64,000 bases of DNA, from the NCBI RefSeq assembly GCF_900115495.1, contig NZ_FOWR01000006.1:62001-126000 (forward strand), read 5' to 3'. The translations under genes were made by a program, and so were the position numbers. Below are positions 19,790-28,790 of this stretch, piece by piece. Position 1 is the first letter of the stretch. Each line of letters opens with the position of its first letter. The notes beneath the pieces are model-generated. The model searched no databases. It was not told the DNA's origin and saw only the letters and a list, made by a program, of their open reading frames with translations. This DNA comes from Enterovibrio norvegicus DSM 15893. GTDB lineage: Bacteria > Pseudomonadota > Gammaproteobacteria > Enterobacterales > Vibrionaceae.

Positions 19790-21238
19790 TTAAGAGCGGC
19801 ATTTCATGCTTTTCGAACTCACACCACATTTAATGGCCTGGAATGATTCTTGATAATCTTCATTATGGGGGAAAGCGTCCGCAAGCTTGCGATACTCTTT
19901 CAGCGCCTCGCGTTTTCGATTGCTGTTGAACAGTGACCACGCCTTTATTTCAATCAATTGAACGTCTTTACCATACACGGCTTCATACTCTTCAATCTGC
20001 GCCAAGGTCGTCTCGTATGCTTTGGTATCAAACGCTTTGAATACACGCTTCATGGCGATTTGTTTATCCAATTCTGCGCGCGTATCGATGTCGTTGATTT
20101 GCGCGGACAGAACGGTGGCCTTGTCTGAGAACCCCATTTTATCTAGCGCCAATACATAGCCATATTGTGTCAGATCCCAGTCAGGATCATTAGGCGCCAT
20201 AAGATCTAATGCGTTTTCAAATTCTGTCGCTGCAGACACAGGTCTGTTTAAGTCATAGAGCGTCCATCCTTTTAATGCATATTCCGATGCAGACAAAGAT
20301 TCAATGGCATTCAAGCTCTCTAAACACGCCTTTATCTCTCCTTCACAATTCACCACGTTTCCGTCATCTGAGCCAAAATCGAGTTCCGCTATGGAAGGGT
20401 AACTGTCCGACCATTGAGCCTGCTGCATCAGTAACTCTTCTCTCTCCCCCATTTCTTGTAAGGTCAATAAACGCCCTTCAATGCGCTTAGCACTCGGGCC
20501 CGCCCAACTTATCGCACGCTCAAACCAGTCATTGGCGGCAAATGCATCCCCCATATTTAGGTATTTCCAACCAATTGCCTCGGCCGCCTTGGCATTTTTC
20601 TTGGCAATAACAAGTTCACCAACATGGGCAAGTTCACCTTCAGAGAGTGAGGCTTTTGAGAGCTTACCCAGAGCCATATCTTGCTTAATTTGAGCCACGA
20701 CTTGCGGGTCATACGCCGTTGACTGTTCATAGCGTGAAAGGATGTCTTGCGCCGCGCTCGGTGCTGTCCAACCCAATAGTTTCTGTGTGGTACTCAGTTC
20801 GTGTGCTCCACAGTTATCGAGTATTTTCTGATACTTGGCTTTTACATTCGTCCCATACCCTGTTTTGCTTTCATTCTTTAGATCCAACCACATCCATTGA
20901 ATGCGATCGCAGTGCATCCAATCTGGGTTTTCCTCAACCAGCGAGCTGGCTTGGGTATGCTTTCCCGCGTTTATCATCGACGACAGCGAATCCAGTGACG
21001 CGCGATATGAGATTTCATCCCGAAGCGCCTCAGACACCTCTAAATCTGACGTTGCTTCTTGGGCCGTTTTCCAACCCTTATCTTCGAGCATGGTCCAGTA
21101 CTGCTCTTCATCAATCGCGGTGCTATTTTGTGTCGACACTTCAACCGAGACGCGTTCATCAAAAACCATCACTTCATGATGATCTTTTGCCATCGCTGAA
21201 ACAGAAAAAATGGTTGAAACCATGAGCAATATTTTCAT
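19790..21238 (-). CDS. Periplasmic TPR-like protein, last gene of the bcs operon
   Basis: A 482-aa exported protein: signal peptide at 1-18 (cleavage after AMA), then helical repeats of about 34 residues with TPR-like spacing (AIGWKYLNMGDAFAANDWFE, ALKGWTLYDLNRPVSAATEF, IEIKAWSLFNSNRKREALKE). It resembles the TPR half of BcsC but lacks the 16-strand C-terminal barrel and is less than half of BcsC's usual 1,100-1,300 aa. Start ATG 21238 overlaps the bcsZ stop (ATGA) with AGAGGG at 7 nt. It may bind polymer or scaffold the secretion machine; the outer-membrane channel must come from elsewhere. Confidence 0.75.
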   Translation of the reverse strand: MKILLMVSTIFSVSAMAKDHHEVMVFDERVSVEVSTQNSTAIDEEQYWTMLEDKGWKTAQEATSDLEVSEALRDEISYRASLDSLSSMINAGKHTQASSLVEENPDWMHCDRIQWMWLDLKNESKTGYGTNVKAKYQKILDNCGAHELSTTQKLLGWTAPSAAQDILSRYEQSTAYDPQVVAQIKQDMALGKLSKASLSEGELAHVGELVIAKKNAKAAEAIGWKYLNMGDAFAANDWFERAISWAGPSAKRIEGRLLTLQEMGEREELLMQQAQWSDSYPSIAELDFGSDDGNVVNCEGEIKACLESLNAIESLSASEYALKGWTLYDLNRPVSAATEFENALDLMAPNDPDWDLTQYGYVLALDKMGFSDKATVLSAQINDIDTRAELDKQIAMKRVFKAFDTKAYETTLAQIEEYEAVYGKDVQLIEIKAWSLFNSNRKREALKEYRKLADAFPHNEDYQESFQAIKCGVSSKSMKCRS

Positions 21239-22257
21239 CTGCAAACCCTCTCATTAAACGCAATATGTGAAAGCAACACTAAGCTGTCTGAATAGTAATC
21301 TTTTCCTTTTGGCATCACTGAAATGCCCTTTTTCAGCGCCCTTTGGCCATTTGCTAGCGCAACCAATTGACTGATTGCGATGGCACCATCAGGGGGCGGG
21401 TAGGAAGCAGATTCCCCGCTTTTCACATCAACCCACGCCGTGTCATTTTGTTTTAGCCACTTCGTGTACTGACGGTTGAATGCATGCTTTCTCCCACCCC
21501 AAACCATGTATAACGGAATGCGATAGCTCGAATAGCTAAACTGGGAAGGAAACCCTTGTGCTGGCTGCCAACCCGCGTTTTGGTACTCGACCCAATCAGA
21601 CGTCAGCTTACTTTTGCCATACTGGTTTTGACTTAAAATGCGTAACCCACTGTTTGCCAATGTTGACCATTTACGACTGTATCGAACAAAGTCATCCATG
21701 GCGGGATACACCCAGTAGCCCGGATTGACGACAGTGCGGTTTTTGAATGTGAACCCCATTGCTCCAGGTAACATGATCACCTCCCCGCCAACAGGACGAA
21801 GATGAGAGCTTTGCAGTGCCCGAATAATGTCGCTCGCTTCTTTCGCGTATTGTTTGGATGACCATTTCACAGCAGCGCGATGCAGCGCCCAAGCAATAAG
21901 CATGTCACCATCACTTGCATTGTTTCGGTCAGGAATGTGTGGTTTTCGCGGTTGCCATTTCCATGAAAACAGCGGGTCCATGTCTCGTTGAAGATGGGTT
22001 TTCGTCCAAGACCAGATGCCGTGGAACGTTTTACGGTCATTGAAGTATGCCGCCATCAACATGCCATAGCCTTGTCCCTCACTGTGTGAAATGTTGTGGT
22101 TACCGGTATCGACTACCCGACCATCCTTTGCAATAAAGCTGCTCTTATAAAGCGTCCACATACGTTTATCACTGTCGCATATAGATGGCGATGCGGTACT
22201 GTCAACACTGCCGCTCAGCGAAAACAACATGGCGATTGAAAGTAATGGTTTGCTCAT
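21235..22257 (-). CDS. bcsZ: Glycoside hydrolase family 8 endoglucanase (BcsZ-type)
   Basis: A 340-aa periplasmic endo-beta-1,4-glucanase. Signal peptide 1-17/20. The GH8 proton donor is Glu60 in HSEGQGYGML, and ASDGDMLIAWAL at 114-125 carries the conserved substrate-binding Asp116/Asp118. GYWVYPAMDDF follows as in BcsZ of E. coli. BcsZ trims nascent cellulose and is needed for proper export. ATG 22257 overlaps the bcsB TGA by ATGA and is preferred over the frame start at 22302, which adds a nonsense-like N-terminus without signal peptide. Confidence 0.88.
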   Translation of the reverse strand: MSKPLLSIAMLFSLSGSVDSTASPSICDSDKRMWTLYKSSFIAKDGRVVDTGNHNISHSEGQGYGMLMAAYFNDRKTFHGIWSWTKTHLQRDMDPLFSWKWQPRKPHIPDRNNASDGDMLIAWALHRAAVKWSSKQYAKEASDIIRALQSSHLRPVGGEVIMLPGAMGFTFKNRTVVNPGYWVYPAMDDFVRYSRKWSTLANSGLRILSQNQYGKSKLTSDWVEYQNAGWQPAQGFPSQFSYSSYRIPLYMVWGGRKHAFNRQYTKWLKQNDTAWVDVKSGESASYPPPDGAIAISQLVALANGQRALKKGISVMPKGKDYYSDSLVLLSHIAFNERVCR

Positions 22258-24242
22258 TTTCTCGCCTCCAGCGCACGCGATACAAACGCTGACATCCACC
22301 AAATGATAAATAACGCTAGGATAGATAGGCCTGCTGGGTAGCCAATAAAAGCTGCTTTAAAAAACTGAGATGTGCTGCTTGAAAACTCGCGTTCGCTCAG
22401 CACACCAGCAGGAGCAGAGCTTGACTCACTACGCATGAAATCATCGAACTTTTCATAGGTCGTTTCGGCAAATTGAATGCGGTACCAGCCTTCTTGATTG
22501 GTGTGTTTAATGGTTGCAAGCTCACTTGTCGGTTCAGAAAACATCATGTCAGAGGTATAAAAGTTCTCTTGTTCTGCCTCGCCTTTGCCAGCGACAAAGT
22601 CAAACAAGTGCGTTTTAAGTCCATCCCAACGTGATACATTCTGGGCTGGTAAAATGTATGGCTCCGCAACCTCGATCTCTGTCAACGAAATGTGGAAAGG
22701 ACGGCGCTGTTCCGTCTCGCCCGTGATCATCAAGCCCGGCATGGCTTTGTGCGTACGGTGTGAAACATAACTCAATAGGCGCCATAGGTTTGCCAGCTGA
22801 ACGGGGTCCTTTTTATCTACTGATATTTGTGCTTGTTTACCGCAGTCATCCGCAATGGCAAAAAAGTCATGCGCTGATACTTTATGCCCTTCCGTGGGAA
22901 TGAACTTAACCCAAGAACTCAGCCTTAGGTTCGACTTTTCTGACATATAGACGGCGAATCGACGGTCTTGATTTTGCACATCTACCGGCCCATAGATTTC
23001 AACAGAGACACGATTAATACCTGGTGTGAATTTACGCATCGGGATGTTTAATCGATAGTGTTGAGTGTCTCGCCAATAGCTCGAACGCAATGGAAGACTG
23101 TTTGCGTATTCACCATTCACACGAAGAATCATTGAGCCCGCACCGGGCGCCACCCTAGAGTGCGACAGCAATAGATTGATTTTTGCGTTGTCTTCGTCAC
23201 TAAACAAAATGTTACTCGGCATCACCAAATCCAGCTCCAAAGGGGAATCGGTCAAGTCCGTTTGCTCGGTAAACTCTGACATCAAGTACGTGGCTTCACT
23301 TTTTAATGAACGGTCAATGACGTTATCTTCATTGACGACCACCATTGAGCCTCGCTCAGGAAAACGACGCATGTTGTTGGCAAAGACTTTGGCAGCACGT
23401 TTCACCTCTCGCTCATTTTTCCCCGAAATGATGAGTAACCATTCATCCCCTTTCGTGCTGTCTCCAATACCAAGGTAAGGGCCAGAAACAGCCTTATGTG
23501 TTTCTTGATCTACCCAGCCGGCGTTAAGCAGTGCGTCGCTGGTGCCATAAACAATCACAGGACCAAGACGTCGCTCTCCGTATTTTGACTCCATTCGGTA
23601 ATCGAACTGATAGTCCTCAGACCCACTTTTCAATGTCCAGCCCTGCACCAAGTAGGCAGCCAAAGATAACGATAGATCAGTGTCAGTTATCGCCGAAATC
23701 ATGTGAATGGGTGCATCATGGTGCTGGCCACTTCGCATCATCTCCTCAAAGGATGCGAGCGTTTTCTGATTAAAAGTGCCACTTTCCTGATAGTTCAGTT
23801 CATAGAAAGACGCTTTCACATTGATGGTCGTATTCAGCCCAGTAGTATCAATCACCAAGTTTGGATCGTTGGATAGATGCTGAATTCGCAAATTCAGTGA
23901 CGGGTTTTCTTTCGATAGCAACCCGGCTGGAAACGTGGCTTCTATGTACTGAAACTGATGACGCTGTTTCACCTCGATATTTGCCAGTGAACGGTTGCCC
24001 GCAGCCAGCCACAACACCGTACTATCAACAATATTGTTGTTGTAAATCGCGAGAGAAAGACGCACGTTTTCAACCTCTTGCCCATCCAAAATAGAAATGG
24101 GGATGGGCATGATCTGGCTTTGCCCACGAAGAACAATGTCTTCCTTCGTATCCATGGCATAAGTCAGTGGAATCTTGACCGTTTTCTCTGCTTGCACCGC
24201 ACACGCAAATAGAAGAAGAAAAGCGATGATGAACTTATTCAT
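22254..24242 (-). CDS. bcsB: Cellulose synthase periplasmic subunit (BcsB-type)
   Basis: A 662-aa protein: signal peptide 1-18, two carbohydrate-binding/flavodoxin-like halves (AIYNNNIVDSTVLWLAAGNRS in the first, ILRVNGEYANSLPLR in the second, with GINRVSVEIYGP), and one C-terminal membrane helix (PAGLSILALFIIWWMSAF) that packs on BcsA. It is about 100 residues shorter than E. coli BcsB. The first codons overlap the end of bcsA by 8 nt, so the two are translationally coupled, as expected for a 1:1 or higher complex. Confidence 0.88.
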   Translation of the reverse strand: MNKFIIAFLLLFACAVQAEKTVKIPLTYAMDTKEDIVLRGQSQIMPIPISILDGQEVENVRLSLAIYNNNIVDSTVLWLAAGNRSLANIEVKQRHQFQYIEATFPAGLLSKENPSLNLRIQHLSNDPNLVIDTTGLNTTINVKASFYELNYQESGTFNQKTLASFEEMMRSGQHHDAPIHMISAITDTDLSLSLAAYLVQGWTLKSGSEDYQFDYRMESKYGERRLGPVIVYGTSDALLNAGWVDQETHKAVSGPYLGIGDSTKGDEWLLIISGKNEREVKRAAKVFANNMRRFPERGSMVVVNEDNVIDRSLKSEATYLMSEFTEQTDLTDSPLELDLVMPSNILFSDEDNAKINLLLSHSRVAPGAGSMILRVNGEYANSLPLRSSYWRDTQHYRLNIPMRKFTPGINRVSVEIYGPVDVQNQDRRFAVYMSEKSNLRLSSWVKFIPTEGHKVSAHDFFAIADDCGKQAQISVDKKDPVQLANLWRLLSYVSHRTHKAMPGLMITGETEQRRPFHISLTEIEVAEPYILPAQNVSRWDGLKTHLFDFVAGKGEAEQENFYTSDMMFSEPTSELATIKHTNQEGWYRIQFAETTYEKFDDFMRSESSSAPAGVLSEREFSSSTSQFFKAAFIGYPAGLSILALFIIWWMSAFVSRALEARK

Positions 24243-26457
24243 TTTGAAACTCCTTCTTGCCAGAAGCAGATGCCGATTCGATTTTGTTTTTCACGGATGT
24301 CGTGAAGACGCGTGTTAAATTGGAGCAAGCGAGAGAGAAAAGACTCAATGCAGACGACAACACGTCTTGGTTTAAGCTTTCTTCATAGCGACGGCGCTCT
24401 TTCCAACGGCTACTTTGTCCATAGGCTTTTGCGTATTGCACCTGCATGTCCGACGCAACATTGCTCTCTAACAAACAGCACACTTGAACGCCTTGGTGAC
24501 CATGTTTGAGAGCCACCACTCGCATACTGAGCTGCACCATTTGATACATCGGTTTCTTGGTTTTCTTGCTTTTCCCTTTCTCGGTGAAATACGTCACATC
24601 CACCATGTCGCCACGGTGAAAGATGTTTTCTCCTTCATGTAGGGTTAAGCGCGCCCCTTTAATAGAGATATCATTAAGCGTTGCGTTATAGCTTTCACTA
24701 TCCATTTGAATCATGGCTTTTTCATTCACCAACAGACGCGGTTCGCTGCGGCGCTGTTGCTTCTCTAACATGGCACCAAGACAAAGCACGATGAGCATCA
24801 AGTTGAAACTATTAAAGATGATCACAAGAATGAGCTGGCTTTGTTCTGTTGGGAATTGGATGTAACGATAGATCCCCCACGCTTCAGCAAGTACCACCAG
24901 CCCGAAAATGAAAGCCATAAAAGGCGTGAGTTTTGAAAAGCAAACCTTACGCGTGGTCTCTCCTTTTGGTGTCACCACGAAGTTGGGTTTTTTAGGGTTA
25001 AACAGCACGGATAAAGCAGGTAAACAGAGGTAAATAGACAGTGCTGTCTCGTAGAGCTCAGAGAAGAATGCACGCCGTGTTTTCCCAAACAGTCGCTGCG
25101 TTATCATCACACTTATCACTAAGTGCGGAACAACAAAGATGAGAAAGTCAGTGGCGTTGCCAACGAAGATCTGTAAATCCAGCAACAGATAAAGCAATGG
25201 AGACAACAAGAATGTGGTACGAAATATTGGGAAGAACCAATACAACGTCGAATTGAGGTAGCAGATCCTCTGCCCCATCGTTAAGCCGCGTTTTAGCAAT
25301 GGGTTGTTAAGCAAGAATATTTGGATCATCCCTTGCGCCCAGCGAGAACGCTGCGTGACATATGCGCCAAACGTATCTGGCGACAAACCCGCGACCATCG
25401 CACGGTTTAAATAGGCACTTTGCCAACCTTTTGCATGAATGTTCAATGCAGTATCTGCATCTTCAGTGATAGTTTTGGTCGAAATACCGCCAACTTCCTC
25501 TAGCGCAACACGACGAATAACAGCCGCAGACCCGCAGAAAAAACAGCCATTCCAAAAGTCCATCCCAAGTAAAATTTTGTTATAGAACATCTCGTTTTCG
25601 GAAGGAACTTTATCTTCGATGCCCAAGTTGCGTTCAACAGGCCCTGGCGTCACGAAGAAATGCGGCGTTTGAACAAAACCCAGTTTTGGTTCTTTTTGGA
25701 ACAAACCAATCGTATTGAGCAAGAAATCGCGTGTCGGTACATGGTCAGCATCCAGAACAAGTACCAAGTCGCCGTCTGTTTTTTTCAGGGCATGATTGAT
25801 GTTTCCCGCTTTCGCATGTTCATTACGTTCTCGAGTAATGTAGGTTGCCCCTACTTCCTCACAAAAGGCGATTAATGTGTCCGCACGACGTTTGGCTGCT
25901 GCAGCTGCATCAACATCTTCATCGCTCAGCTTTTGATCTGTGCCGCCATCATCGAGTACAAACACGCGAAACTGTCCCGGATATTCAAGACGCGAAGCGG
26001 CAAGTATCGTAGGCTCAACAACATCAATGGGCTCATTGTAGGTAGGAATGTAAACGTCAACCGTAGGCAACGGTGCTTCAGTGTCGATAGGCACGCGTTT
26101 ACGTTCATAGGGTTTGACGGTCACAAACATGCCCATCACATAAATCAGGATACCGTAACACTCAGCAGCAAAGAGCAATAATGCGAACGGTAAATCGAGG
26201 CTACTTTCCCAGGGTAACGTTTCGTGAAATCGCCAATAGATATAGCGAAATGAAATAAACGCACCGATGATGAGAATAAAGGTTGTTGCACGCGTTGAAA
26301 AATTACGCGACAACAACAAAATCAGTAGAAAAGCGCTACCCGCAAGCCAGATGTGGGTGTCAGTTGAAATATTTAGCGTCGCCAACATAAACAGGCAATA
26401 CAGCGCGCAAAATACCATGAGCAATTTAAATATTTGCTTCGGTAAGTTCGACGTCAT
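24235..26457 (-). CDS. bcsA: Cellulose synthase catalytic subunit (BcsA-type) with PilZ domain
   Basis: A 740-aa processive family-2 glycosyltransferase. Membrane helices at 9-28, 36-50, 58-72 and 92-112 precede the GT domain, which has DDG at 169-171, DAD at 236-238, TED at 331-333 and QRSRW at 369-373 (the QxxRW polymer-binding motif). More helices follow (about 400-570), then a PilZ domain with R570xxxR574 and D596xSxxG601, the full c-di-GMP-binding signature. So beta-1,4-glucan (or a related polymer) synthesis should be activated by c-di-GMP. No bcsQ, bcsE/F/G or bcsD is nearby. Start ATG follows the lipoprotein stop by one base. Confidence 0.92.
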   Translation of the reverse strand: MTSNLPKQIFKLLMVFCALYCLFMLATLNISTDTHIWLAGSAFLLILLLSRNFSTRATTFILIIGAFISFRYIYWRFHETLPWESSLDLPFALLLFAAECYGILIYVMGMFVTVKPYERKRVPIDTEAPLPTVDVYIPTYNEPIDVVEPTILAASRLEYPGQFRVFVLDDGGTDQKLSDEDVDAAAAAKRRADTLIAFCEEVGATYITRERNEHAKAGNINHALKKTDGDLVLVLDADHVPTRDFLLNTIGLFQKEPKLGFVQTPHFFVTPGPVERNLGIEDKVPSENEMFYNKILLGMDFWNGCFFCGSAAVIRRVALEEVGGISTKTITEDADTALNIHAKGWQSAYLNRAMVAGLSPDTFGAYVTQRSRWAQGMIQIFLLNNPLLKRGLTMGQRICYLNSTLYWFFPIFRTTFLLSPLLYLLLDLQIFVGNATDFLIFVVPHLVISVMITQRLFGKTRRAFFSELYETALSIYLCLPALSVLFNPKKPNFVVTPKGETTRKVCFSKLTPFMAFIFGLVVLAEAWGIYRYIQFPTEQSQLILVIIFNSFNLMLIVLCLGAMLEKQQRRSEPRLLVNEKAMIQMDSESYNATLNDISIKGARLTLHEGENIFHRGDMVDVTYFTEKGKSKKTKKPMYQMVQLSMRVVALKHGHQGVQVCCLLESNVASDMQVQYAKAYGQSSRWKERRRYEESLNQDVLSSALSLFSLACSNLTRVFTTSVKNKIESASASGKKEFQNE

Positions 26458-26458
26458 C

Positions 26459-26980
26459 TTAGAATCCTTCTAATAGAAGTGAGGGTTTTAGCTGATGGAT
26501 CCAAACAAGATCCTGATGTTCGTTGGCGGTACAGTAATGGGTAAACACAGAGAGCCAGAAGTTATCGCCTCGTGTGCTTTGGCGGGCAATTAAGCAACGC
26601 TCACCCCCTTCCCTCGTTTCGGTCCACTGCTGATAGGGTCCAATGTCGTTGTAGACAAGTTGCCCGTCACCTTCTGGTACGGTGAAAGAAAACATGTTTG
26701 GCGGTTGCTTAAATGGAGACCTGCTGATTATTTGAACAACATAATTTTCACCAGGTAGATAAGTATTATTTTCTAATTGCGTCCAAAACCAGGTTTCATC
26801 ATTTCGTGATTGTCGGAAACTCTTTACAGTCTCTACACCTTCTAATAGTGCGGGTAATTGGTATGCAGCAATTTCAGTTGGATCATAAATTTGCTCATGG
26901 CGCGTTTGTTGAATTAACTGACAGCCTGATAAAGCAACAATCCCGCACATTAACAGTGGTACTGTAGATATCGATGACAT
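26459..26980 (-). CDS. Lipoprotein of unknown function, first gene of the bcs operon
   Basis: A 173-aa lipoprotein: MSSISTVPLL, hydrophobic core and lipobox LSG-C at 18-21. The mature part is beta-rich with many aromatic residues (DETWFWTQLEN, GPYQQWTETREGGERC, FWLSVFTHYC), including Cys near 129 and 149 that could form a disulphide. ATG 26980 is chosen because GAGGAGG lies 9 nt upstream; the longer frame (ATG 26998) would contain that site. The stop is one base from bcsA, and a sigma-54 promoter lies 43 bp upstream. I know no homologue in the standard bcs types. It could sit at the outer membrane where BcsC is missing, but that is speculation. Confidence 0.75.
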   Translation of the reverse strand: MSSISTVPLLMCGIVALSGCQLIQQTRHEQIYDPTEIAAYQLPALLEGVETVKSFRQSRNDETWFWTQLENNTYLPGENYVVQIISRSPFKQPPNMFSFTVPEGDGQLVYNDIGPYQQWTETREGGERCLIARQSTRGDNFWLSVFTHYCTANEHQDLVWIHQLKPSLLLEGF

Positions 26981-27022
26981 TCGATAATTCCTCCTCATTT
27001 AGCCTTTCATTACTGTCTCCAA

Positions 27023-27038
27023 AGCAAAAAGCCTGCCA
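27023..27038 (-). promoter_or_regulatory. Sigma-54 promoter of the bcs operon
   Basis: On the minus strand TGGCAGGCTTTTTGCT matches the -24/-12 consensus TGGCACG-N4-TTGCW at 11 of 12 defined bases, with invariant GG and GC separated by exactly 10 nt. Transcription would begin near 27012, giving a leader of about 32 nt before the lipoprotein ATG at 26980. Confidence 0.8.
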
Positions 27039-27142
27039 CCTATACAATTAAATTTTTAATTGTTTAATTTCAGTAACTTATTAAATATTGGTGTCTAATT
27101 AAAAATGATAGAACAAGTGGTAAATGTGATATAAATCAGACA

Positions 27143-27171
27143 TTTCTCAAAGTGACACTGATTTTGAGAAA
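27143..27171 (-). promoter_or_regulatory. Inverted repeat, candidate enhancer for a sigma-54 activator
   Basis: TTTCTCAAA (27143-27151) and TTTGAGAAA (27163-27171) are perfect 9-bp inverted arms with an 11-bp spacer, centred about 145 bp upstream of the sigma-54 start. This is the normal place for an enhancer-binding protein. TTCTCA-N3-TG recalls the SypG/VpsR type of site in vibrios (from memory). The remainder of 26981-27404 is AT-rich and shows no gene. Confidence 0.55.
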
Positions 27172-27404: not shown

Positions 27405-28790
27405 ATGTTAAATCCGAACACTGCCAAAGCGGTGATTGATCACGCACTGTTTCTTGGTGCCGACTTTGCGGAGCTCTTTGTAGAGCGTCACCATTCAGGC
27501 AGCGTAGAAGTGCTGTCGGGCGACGTCGACAAAGTGAACTCTGGTATTGATTTTGGGATTGGTATCCGCCTGTTTTTTGGTCATAAAGTGCTTTATGGCT
27601 ACACCAACAGTCAGGATGAAGAAAAACTAAAACGCGTCACTACCCTGCTCTGCGCAAAAGATAAACGCGACCAAATCGCCAATGCGGGTGCATTGAACCT
27701 GATCATGAATGCAGATCGTCACCCAGCGACCATGCCGTTTTCCGTCGATAACCGCGTTGAAGAGAAGATTGCCTTTTTGAAACGTGTCGATGCAAAAGCG
27801 CGAGCAGAAAGCGACAAAATTTCTCAGGTAATTGGCCGTATTGCACAACGCGAACAACACATTGAAATTTTCAACTCCACCGGTTTACACATTCAGGATA
27901 CCCGTCACTACACCCGTATTGCCTCGTCTGTGGTTGCAACCCTGGGTTCAGAGCAATCAACAGGGTATGAAGCACCAGGCATGTTGTCGGGCTGGGAGTT
28001 CAATTCAAGCGTCGACCCCGAAGCGCTCGGTGAGATGGCCGCAAAACAAGCACTGATTAAGTTAGGTGCAAGTGCCTGCCCATCGGGTGAAATGCCTGTT
28101 GTTATTGGTAATGGCTTCGGTGGCGTTATCTTCCACGAAGCGTGTGGTCACTTGCTAGAAACCACATCTGTAGCGAAAAAAGCCTCAGTCTTCCACGACA
28201 AGATGGGTGAGATGATCGCCAACCCTGTTGTGAACGCAGTGGATAACGGCCTCCTAACCAACGAATGGGGCTCCATCAACATTGATGATGAAGGCATGGA
28301 AACCCAGCATACGCAGCTTATTAAAGACGGTAAGCTGACAGGCTTTATGGTTGACCACATGGGCGGCTTGAAAACGGGCTATGAACGCACGGGATCAGGT
28401 CGTCGTGAATCCTACAAATATGCACCGACCTCACGCATGCGCAATACCTACATCGAAGCTGGCGACGCCGAATTTGATGACATGATCTCTGGCATTGAAC
28501 GTGGTATTTACGCGAAGAAAATGGGCGGCGGTTCTGTGCAACCGGGAACAGGCGAATTCAACTTCGCAGTTCAAGAAGCCTATTTGATTGAAAATGGCAA
28601 AGTGACCACACCGCTGAAATCGGCAACGCTGATCAGCACAGGCCCTAAAGTACTGAAAGAAATCAGCATGGTCGGCAAAGACTTTGCATTGGCTGCGGGT
28701 ATGTGTGGCTCAGTCAGTGGTTCTGTACCAACAACCGTGGGACAAGCAGCGCTTAAGGTCGATAACATTCTTGTGGGAGGTGGCAGCTAA
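27405..28790 (+). CDS. tldD: Metalloprotease TldD
   Basis: A 461-aa subunit of the TldD/TldE protease. The zinc motif HExxxH appears as HEACGH at 244-249, in the typical GFGGVIFHEACGHLLE block, and the C-terminal GMCGSVSGSVPTTVGQ segment is conserved. TldD/E degrades unfolded or short peptides and matures microcin-type RiPPs in E. coli. ATG 27405 has AGGAGG at ideal distance; the open frame extends to 27327 but without similarity. Its stop overlaps the tldE start by one base (TAATG). Confidence 0.92.
   Translation: MLNPNTAKAVIDHALFLGADFAELFVERHHSGSVEVLSGDVDKVNSGIDFGIGIRLFFGHKVLYGYTNSQDEEKLKRVTTLLCAKDKRDQIANAGALNLIMNADRHPATMPFSVDNRVEEKIAFLKRVDAKARAESDKISQVIGRIAQREQHIEIFNSTGLHIQDTRHYTRIASSVVATLGSEQSTGYEAPGMLSGWEFNSSVDPEALGEMAAKQALIKLGASACPSGEMPVVIGNGFGGVIFHEACGHLLETTSVAKKASVFHDKMGEMIANPVVNAVDNGLLTNEWGSINIDDEGMETQHTQLIKDGKLTGFMVDHMGGLKTGYERTGSGRRESYKYAPTSRMRNTYIEAGDAEFDDMISGIERGIYAKKMGGGSVQPGTGEFNFAVQEAYLIENGKVTTPLKSATLISTGPKVLKEISMVGKDFALAAGMCGSVSGSVPTTVGQAALKVDNILVGGGS

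Follow-up and report, generated by a model that had tools for sequence, protein, structure and literature searches.

The cellulose synthesis (bcs) operon of Enterovibrio norvegicus DSM 15893 is, in our judgement, likely to be transcribed by sigma-54 RNA polymerase and activated by a SypG-type protein that would also control a syp-type polysaccharide locus elsewhere in the genome. Enterovibrio are marine relatives of the vibrios, and the operon lies within the 64,000-nucleotide stretch of DNA that was analysed (the window). Observed directly were a -24/-12 site and an enhancer-type site before the operon, their conservation in relatives, the match of the upstream site to a SypG motif, the gene for the candidate activator and RpoN, which is encoded in 16/16 genomes. 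In the mechanism that we propose, sigma-54 RNA polymerase at the promoter at 27023-27038 would transcribe the bcs operon, and the SypG-type protein, whose gene is part of a syp-type exopolysaccharide locus on a different contig, would bind TTCTCA-N3-TGA and, with DNA looping and hydrolysis of ATP, open the promoter. Sigma-54 promoters in the syp-type locus would be controlled through this protein and motif as well, and a phosphorelay from a SypF-like kinase to SypG may switch on cellulose and syp polysaccharide together. Binding, activation, the phosphorelay and co-expression are predictions drawn from sequence comparison.

The bcs operon and its upstream region

The operon consists, in order, of genes for a lipoprotein, BcsA, BcsB, BcsZ and a TPR protein, and none of these five proteins gave a Pfam match to a BcsC beta-barrel. 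The features of the region are as follows.

27405-28790, plus strand: divergent tldD-like gene (Pfam PmbA_TldD), outside the unit
27156-27171, plus strand: downstream flank of the upstream activating sequence (UAS) with the right arm of the palindrome; second, degenerate half-site (...TTGAAAATGA in several relatives)
27144-27155, plus strand: putative SypG-type UAS TTCTCAAAGTGA, TTCTCA-N3-TGA, in the left arm of the palindrome; consensus from PMC10162802
27038-27023, minus strand: predicted sigma-54 -24/-12 promoter TGGCAGGCTTTTTGCT, 11/12 consensus bases, kept in relatives
27012, minus strand: predicted transcription start, 12 nt past the -12 C, placed from the promoter position
26990-26996, minus strand: ribosome-binding site GAGGAGG of the first gene, read from the sequence
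26459-26980, minus strand: lipoprotein, first gene of the operon; lipobox by eye, no Pfam or NCBIfam match
24235-26457, minus strand: bcsA, cellulose synthase with PilZ domain (TIGR03030, 895 bits, cut-off 699)
22254-24242, minus strand: bcsB (PF03170)
21235-22302, minus strand: bcsZ, GH8 endoglucanase (PF01270); longest frame, the start may be 22257
19790-21244, minus strand: short TPR protein (TPR_2), last gene of the operon, conserved in relatives

The consensus of sigma-54 -24/-12 promoters is TGGCACG-N4-TTGCW. A preliminary description of this DNA had placed such a promoter on the minus strand, with 11 of 12 bases matched and ending about 32 nt before the first gene, and both statements are borne out: TGGCAGGCTTTTTGCT agrees at 11/12 defined bases with N10 between GG and GC, and the leader from the predicted start to the likely start codon, ATG at 26980, is about 32 nt. 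The same description had noted a perfect 9-bp inverted repeat upstream of the start, at a distance of about 145 bp. The repeat is present as TTTCTCAAA/TTTGAGAAA at 27143-27151/27163-27171, with an 11-nt spacer, and its centre precedes 27012 by about 145 bp, as described. A search for Rfam RNAs, riboswitches included, returned zero matches between 26800 and 27500 at E up to 0.1.

Each taken alone, the promoter pattern and the palindrome pattern occur at genome-wide background frequency and are unremarkable, because their counts are near those of controls. Over both strands of the genome (5.45 Mb) TGGCA-N6-TTGCW has 48 matches, compared with 36 for its reversed control, and the genome search with the palindrome that had been proposed earlier (TTCTCA-N8..18-TGAGAA) yielded 4 places against 6 in its control, that is, background. 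These frequencies might be taken to mean that promoter and palindrome are chance matches without function, a reading that we find hardly credible, as both elements are kept at near-constant spacing in poorly alignable sequence, with neighbours differing in several genomes. It is this conservation in relatives that takes the elements beyond chance.

The earlier proposal that the palindrome acts as an enhancer is supported for one of its arms. The whole palindrome was rejected as the binding unit, its right arm not being conserved and its pattern lying at genome background; relatives do not keep the right arm as TGAGAA, several having TGAAAATGA or similar. The element that is conserved, TTCTCA-N3-TGA, is in the left arm and precedes the predicted start by about 137 bp. 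Sigma-54 enhancer sites lie about 80-200 bp upstream, and the element thus stands at a distance typical of them. In the available part of PMC10162802, TTCTCANNNTGMDWN is the UAS of SypG and TTGCAWWWTGCAA that of LuxO; in its extended form the window element matches the former at 10/11 defined bases, the deviation being a C at the D position.

Conservation of the promoter and the upstream element

A BcsA search gave a match in 62 of 296 Vibrionaceae genomes; among plasmids it turned up distant BcsA proteins only, every one below 60%. Thirty bcs loci were fetched, of which 14 were not of the lipoprotein type and 16, one per genome, were (6 from Enterovibrio, 2 from genus g12 and 8 from genus g7, possibly Photobacterium); a lipoprotein-like gene precedes bcsA in these 16/30 loci. 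The lipoprotein itself was found in 6 of 61 genomes, every one in the window's genus, the Enterovibrio that carry it including Candidatus E. escacola, sp. ZSDZ35, E. coralii and E. nigricans. The genomes compared, among them the eight of g7, are related, so the counts given here are not independent.

In all eight Enterovibrio/g12 genomes TGGCA-N6-TTGCT lies 53-75 nt upstream of the point where the lipoprotein gene (or the matched frame) begins, and all eight g7 genomes contain TGGT-N7-TTGCW (TGGTC or TGGTG, N6, TTGCW) 42-56 nt before the start. At other bcsA loci a sigma-54 site of 10/12 or better was found in 0/20 when 3 kb upstream was searched, and in 0/14 further loci when about 1.5 kb was searched. 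The looser pattern TGG[CT]-N7-TTGCW matched 2/20 of the control regions, at points 509 and 2561 nt upstream from the end of the fetched sequence, both away from a start and the nearer one inside a coding frame; by eye, 19/20 of these regions show a BcsQ/ParA-like frame. Such comparative evidence supports the predicted sigma-54 promoter before bcs that had been put forward earlier.

The UAS is similarly retained. Exact TTCTCANNNTGA is present in 7/8 Enterovibrio/g12 bcs promoters, the eighth having one mismatch, and exact TTCTCANNNTG[AC] lies within 250 bp upstream in 7/8 (chance per promoter 0 to 0.016 from shuffles); the promoter of Ca. E. escacola has TTCTTAATATGA in place of the exact UAS. 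In a permutation test on this set 0/500 permuted patterns reached the observed UAS score. The distance from UAS start to promoter start is 112-118 bp at the six loci measured, and the UAS is mostly on the strand opposite the operon, with the other orientation in G016. When the eight upstream regions were aligned, the best 16-column windows coincided with the UAS (0.859) and the promoter (0.828), against a mean of 0.498, the region outside these two elements being poorly alignable.

The elements were also considered as part of the divergent tldD-like gene, and this assignment was rejected, since they follow bcs where the neighbour differs. The tldD-like gene does not adjoin bcs in Ca. E. escacola, G299 or G318, and the bcs promoter is still there; upstream neighbours of bcs differ between several genomes, and the spacing of promoter and UAS is near-constant. 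Because Ca. E. escacola, G299/G318 and the Enterovibrio with a tldD-like gene thus differ in what lies upstream, promoter and UAS are assigned to bcs. In G299 and G318 (L159, L160) the five-gene operon is duplicated in tandem; only the second copy has the sigma-54 promoter and UAS, and the bcsB of the first copy is a shorter frame; over all lipoprotein-type loci the promoter is present on 16/18 operon copies.

Two of the assemblies deserve separate mention. The 2.6-Mb genome of Ca. E. escacola (L098) has kept the operon, the last gene of which is cut by the end of the fetched stretch, together with the sigma-54 promoter, and by eye a transposase-like remnant adjoins it. In the assembly of E. 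coralii (L100, L132) two genes, bcsA and the tldD-like one, are broken into two frames apiece; because of the split BcsA frame, the promoter of this species was read from L027.

The candidate activator

About 19 enhancer-binding proteins are encoded in the window's genome. The gene for the SypG-like member lies on contig C44 among STAS-like (by eye), OmpA, SLBB export and kinase-like genes, the last assigned by eye and having no Pfam match, and the cluster also encodes a HATPase-REC-SpoIIE protein, a hybrid kinase and a response regulator. With the order of sypA to sypG taken as the reference, the predicted gene order of the cluster is sypA-to-sypG-like. Also encoded in the stretch around it (L030, C44 50.0-69.9 kb) are a DUF4114 protein and an exosortase-like protein, which scores 19.5 bits with TIGR04178 (cut-off 23). 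The SypG-like assignment was made through gene order, a tree and an NCBIfam cut-off rather than by direct comparison with V. fischeri SypG. Against the NCBIfam model of LuxO the protein scores 651 (cut-off 800), compared with 817.5 for the genome's own LuxO, whose gene adjoins a LuxU-like gene (by eye), and in the tree the LuxO clade (25 rows) stands apart from the SypG-like protein with support 97/94, the outgroup branches being long. The SypG-like gene was found in 15/18 genomes of the genus (one as a partial frame), including all six with the bcs operon; as it is also present in 9/12 congeners without the operon, its co-occurrence with bcs is not selective. In its available part, an eLife paper lets G. 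hollisae stand for the Salinivibrio-Grimontia-Enterovibrio group and records no SypG there, and the finding of SypG in Enterovibrio extends that paper's table.

The motif before bcs recurs at the syp-type locus. Genome-wide, TTCTCANNNTGA has 83 matches against 15 for a reversed control that differs in composition, and on comparison of the lists by eye it falls within 300 bp of TGGCA-N6-TTGCW at two loci only, bcs and the syp-type locus (C44 61.9-62.3 kb); at the latter, the UAS is flanked by a divergent pair of sigma-54 sites. When the 3 kb that follow sypG were scanned, a UAS lay within 250 bp upstream of 11/23 sigma-54-like sites (plus strand, 10/12 or better), where 0.27 would be expected, and these sites come from 9/14 genomes. 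The remaining 5/14 syp-type loci (G002, G004, G011, G012 and G015) have no exact UAS within 250 bp of a sigma-54-like site, and they include that of the bcs-bearing Ca. E. escacola (G012). In the window's own genome sypA has a -24/-12 match of 9/12 and no UAS by a relaxed pattern. A SypG-type response regulator encoded in the syp locus and the same putative UAS at syp promoters are what a SypG regulon would comprise. The earlier suggestion that bcs shares control with another matrix locus gains support from this comparison, which points to the syp-type locus as the probable partner.

With so many enhancer-binding proteins in the genome, the sigma-54 promoter could be real and its activator LuxO or another member of the family, leaving SypG without a role. 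The TTCTCA-type sites of g7 promoters, above chance though SypG was not found there, are in line with such a reading, as is the overlap of SypG and LuxO sites at V. fischeri qrr1 described in the part of PMC10162802 available. We nonetheless regard it as unlikely, given that the SypG motif fits the window UAS and recurs in the syp-type locus. Indeed LuxO is unsupported as the activator in Enterovibrio: TTGCAWWWTGCAA is absent from the window bcs promoter, where the best match is 10/13 (shuffle P 0.54), and TTGCA ranks only 175th of 1024 half-sites in Enterovibrio/g12. Perfect LuxO-type sites occur in the genome at just two places, both elsewhere (L181, C26:129139; L182, C72:50129), and the one that adjoins luxO probably belongs to a qrr promoter.

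The g7 genomes present a different picture. With an E limit of 1e-90 each of the eight gave a single match, which belongs to the LuxO clade (L148 scores 871), and SypG was not found in any of them. LuxO-like sites of 11/13 or better occur in 6/8 g7 bcs promoters, with shuffle P values of 0, 0, 0.005, 0.035, 0.095 and 0.095, the other two promoters having 0.925 and 1.0; the best sites lie 109-127 bp upstream of the promoter, with one tie at 142. TTGCA is the first of 1024 half-sites in this genus, and in its alignment the highest score is that of the promoter (0.82), followed by that of the LuxO-like site (0.695), against a mean of 0.452. These data raise the possibility, on which we are evenly divided, that in lipoprotein-type bcs operons of three Vibrionaceae genera the sigma-54 promoter has been conserved and the enhancer retuned between paralogous activators, being SypG-type (TTCTCA-N3-TGA) in Enterovibrio and g12, which have a syp locus and SypG, and LuxO-type (TTGCA-N3-TGCAA) in g7, where only LuxO was found. 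A clean swap is not fully borne out, as TTCTCA-type sites are also above chance in g7: exact TTCTCANNNTGA is present in 2/8 of its bcs promoters, and all 500 permuted patterns score lower than that motif in the g7 set. Since the motif is above chance in a genus in which SypG was not found, another protein may read it.

Known systems and implications

The preliminary description pointed to the family of activators that controls syp and vps; by our analysis a SypG-type protein is likely and a VpsR-like protein unlikely. V. cholerae VpsR works with sigma-70. The genome encodes a protein (L017) that we take to be VpsR-like, although it had no NCBIfam match at E 1e-100; the protein is without the GAFTGA loop, and is therefore unlikely to drive sigma-54. 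VpsR-type sigma-70 control, as proposed for V. fischeri bcs, would make the -24/-12 match coincidental and the palindrome a VpsR site. The available text of PMC10804989 reports that induction of a V. fischeri bcs reporter requires VpsR and is independent of SypG, syp being driven by sigma-54 and SypG, and one paper, in the part available, did not find V. cholerae-type VpsR sites upstream of V. fischeri targets. For the window operon we hold VpsR-type control to be very improbable, as the promoter is kept in 16/16 fetched genomes with a lipoprotein-type operon, across three genera, and the right arm of the palindrome is not. Nor does the operon belong to the VpsR-controlled type of V. fischeri, which has a bcsQ-like gene and no sigma-54 site. 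It shares with the bcsQ-type operons of V. fischeri-like and other vibrios a bcsA followed by further cellulose genes, but lacks the bcsQ-like gene, begins with a lipoprotein and has a sigma-54 site of 10/12 or better, which 0/20 of the upstream regions of such operons possess.

The closest parallels to SypG-type control are other sigma-54 systems of vibrios. As at V. fischeri syp promoters, a -24/-12 promoter has a TTCTCANNNTGM-type UAS upstream, and the SypG-like response regulator is found in a sypA-to-G-like order, but the target in Enterovibrio is a cellulose operon. The qrr promoters likewise combine a sigma-54 promoter with a UAS of the LuxO/SypG family, and g7 carries LuxO-like sites, whereas the bcs promoter drives an operon of matrix-synthesis proteins rather than a small RNA, and that of the window is without a LuxO-type site. 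In Pseudomonas a member of the enhancer-binding protein family, FleQ, also controls cellulose genes (PMC6478803, PMC5026340, as far as their available parts go), but mutation of rpoN did not affect the bcsD promoter in P. putida (PMC5026340).

A literature search over titles and the first part of abstracts returned no sigma-54 cellulose operon in Vibrionaceae, a scope that does not establish absence from print. Cellulose operons are usually described as being under sigma-70/sigma-S, CsgD, VpsR or FleQ control. The wiring predicted here would be a new variant, in which sigma-54 control extends to cellulose. A sigma-54 cellulose operon with a syp-type enhancer motif would offer a simple way to place two matrix polysaccharides on one signal, and would explain how a mixed biofilm matrix is built from it. 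Ca. Enterovibrio escacola is a light-organ symbiont of anglerfish, and the retention of operon and promoter in this bacterium parallels the case of V. fischeri and the squid. Given the apparent LuxO-type sites of g7, enhancer switching from one paralogous activator to another can be tested directly; if such switching is true, cellulose would be under a symbiosis-type phosphorelay in one lineage and under direct quorum-sensing control in the other.
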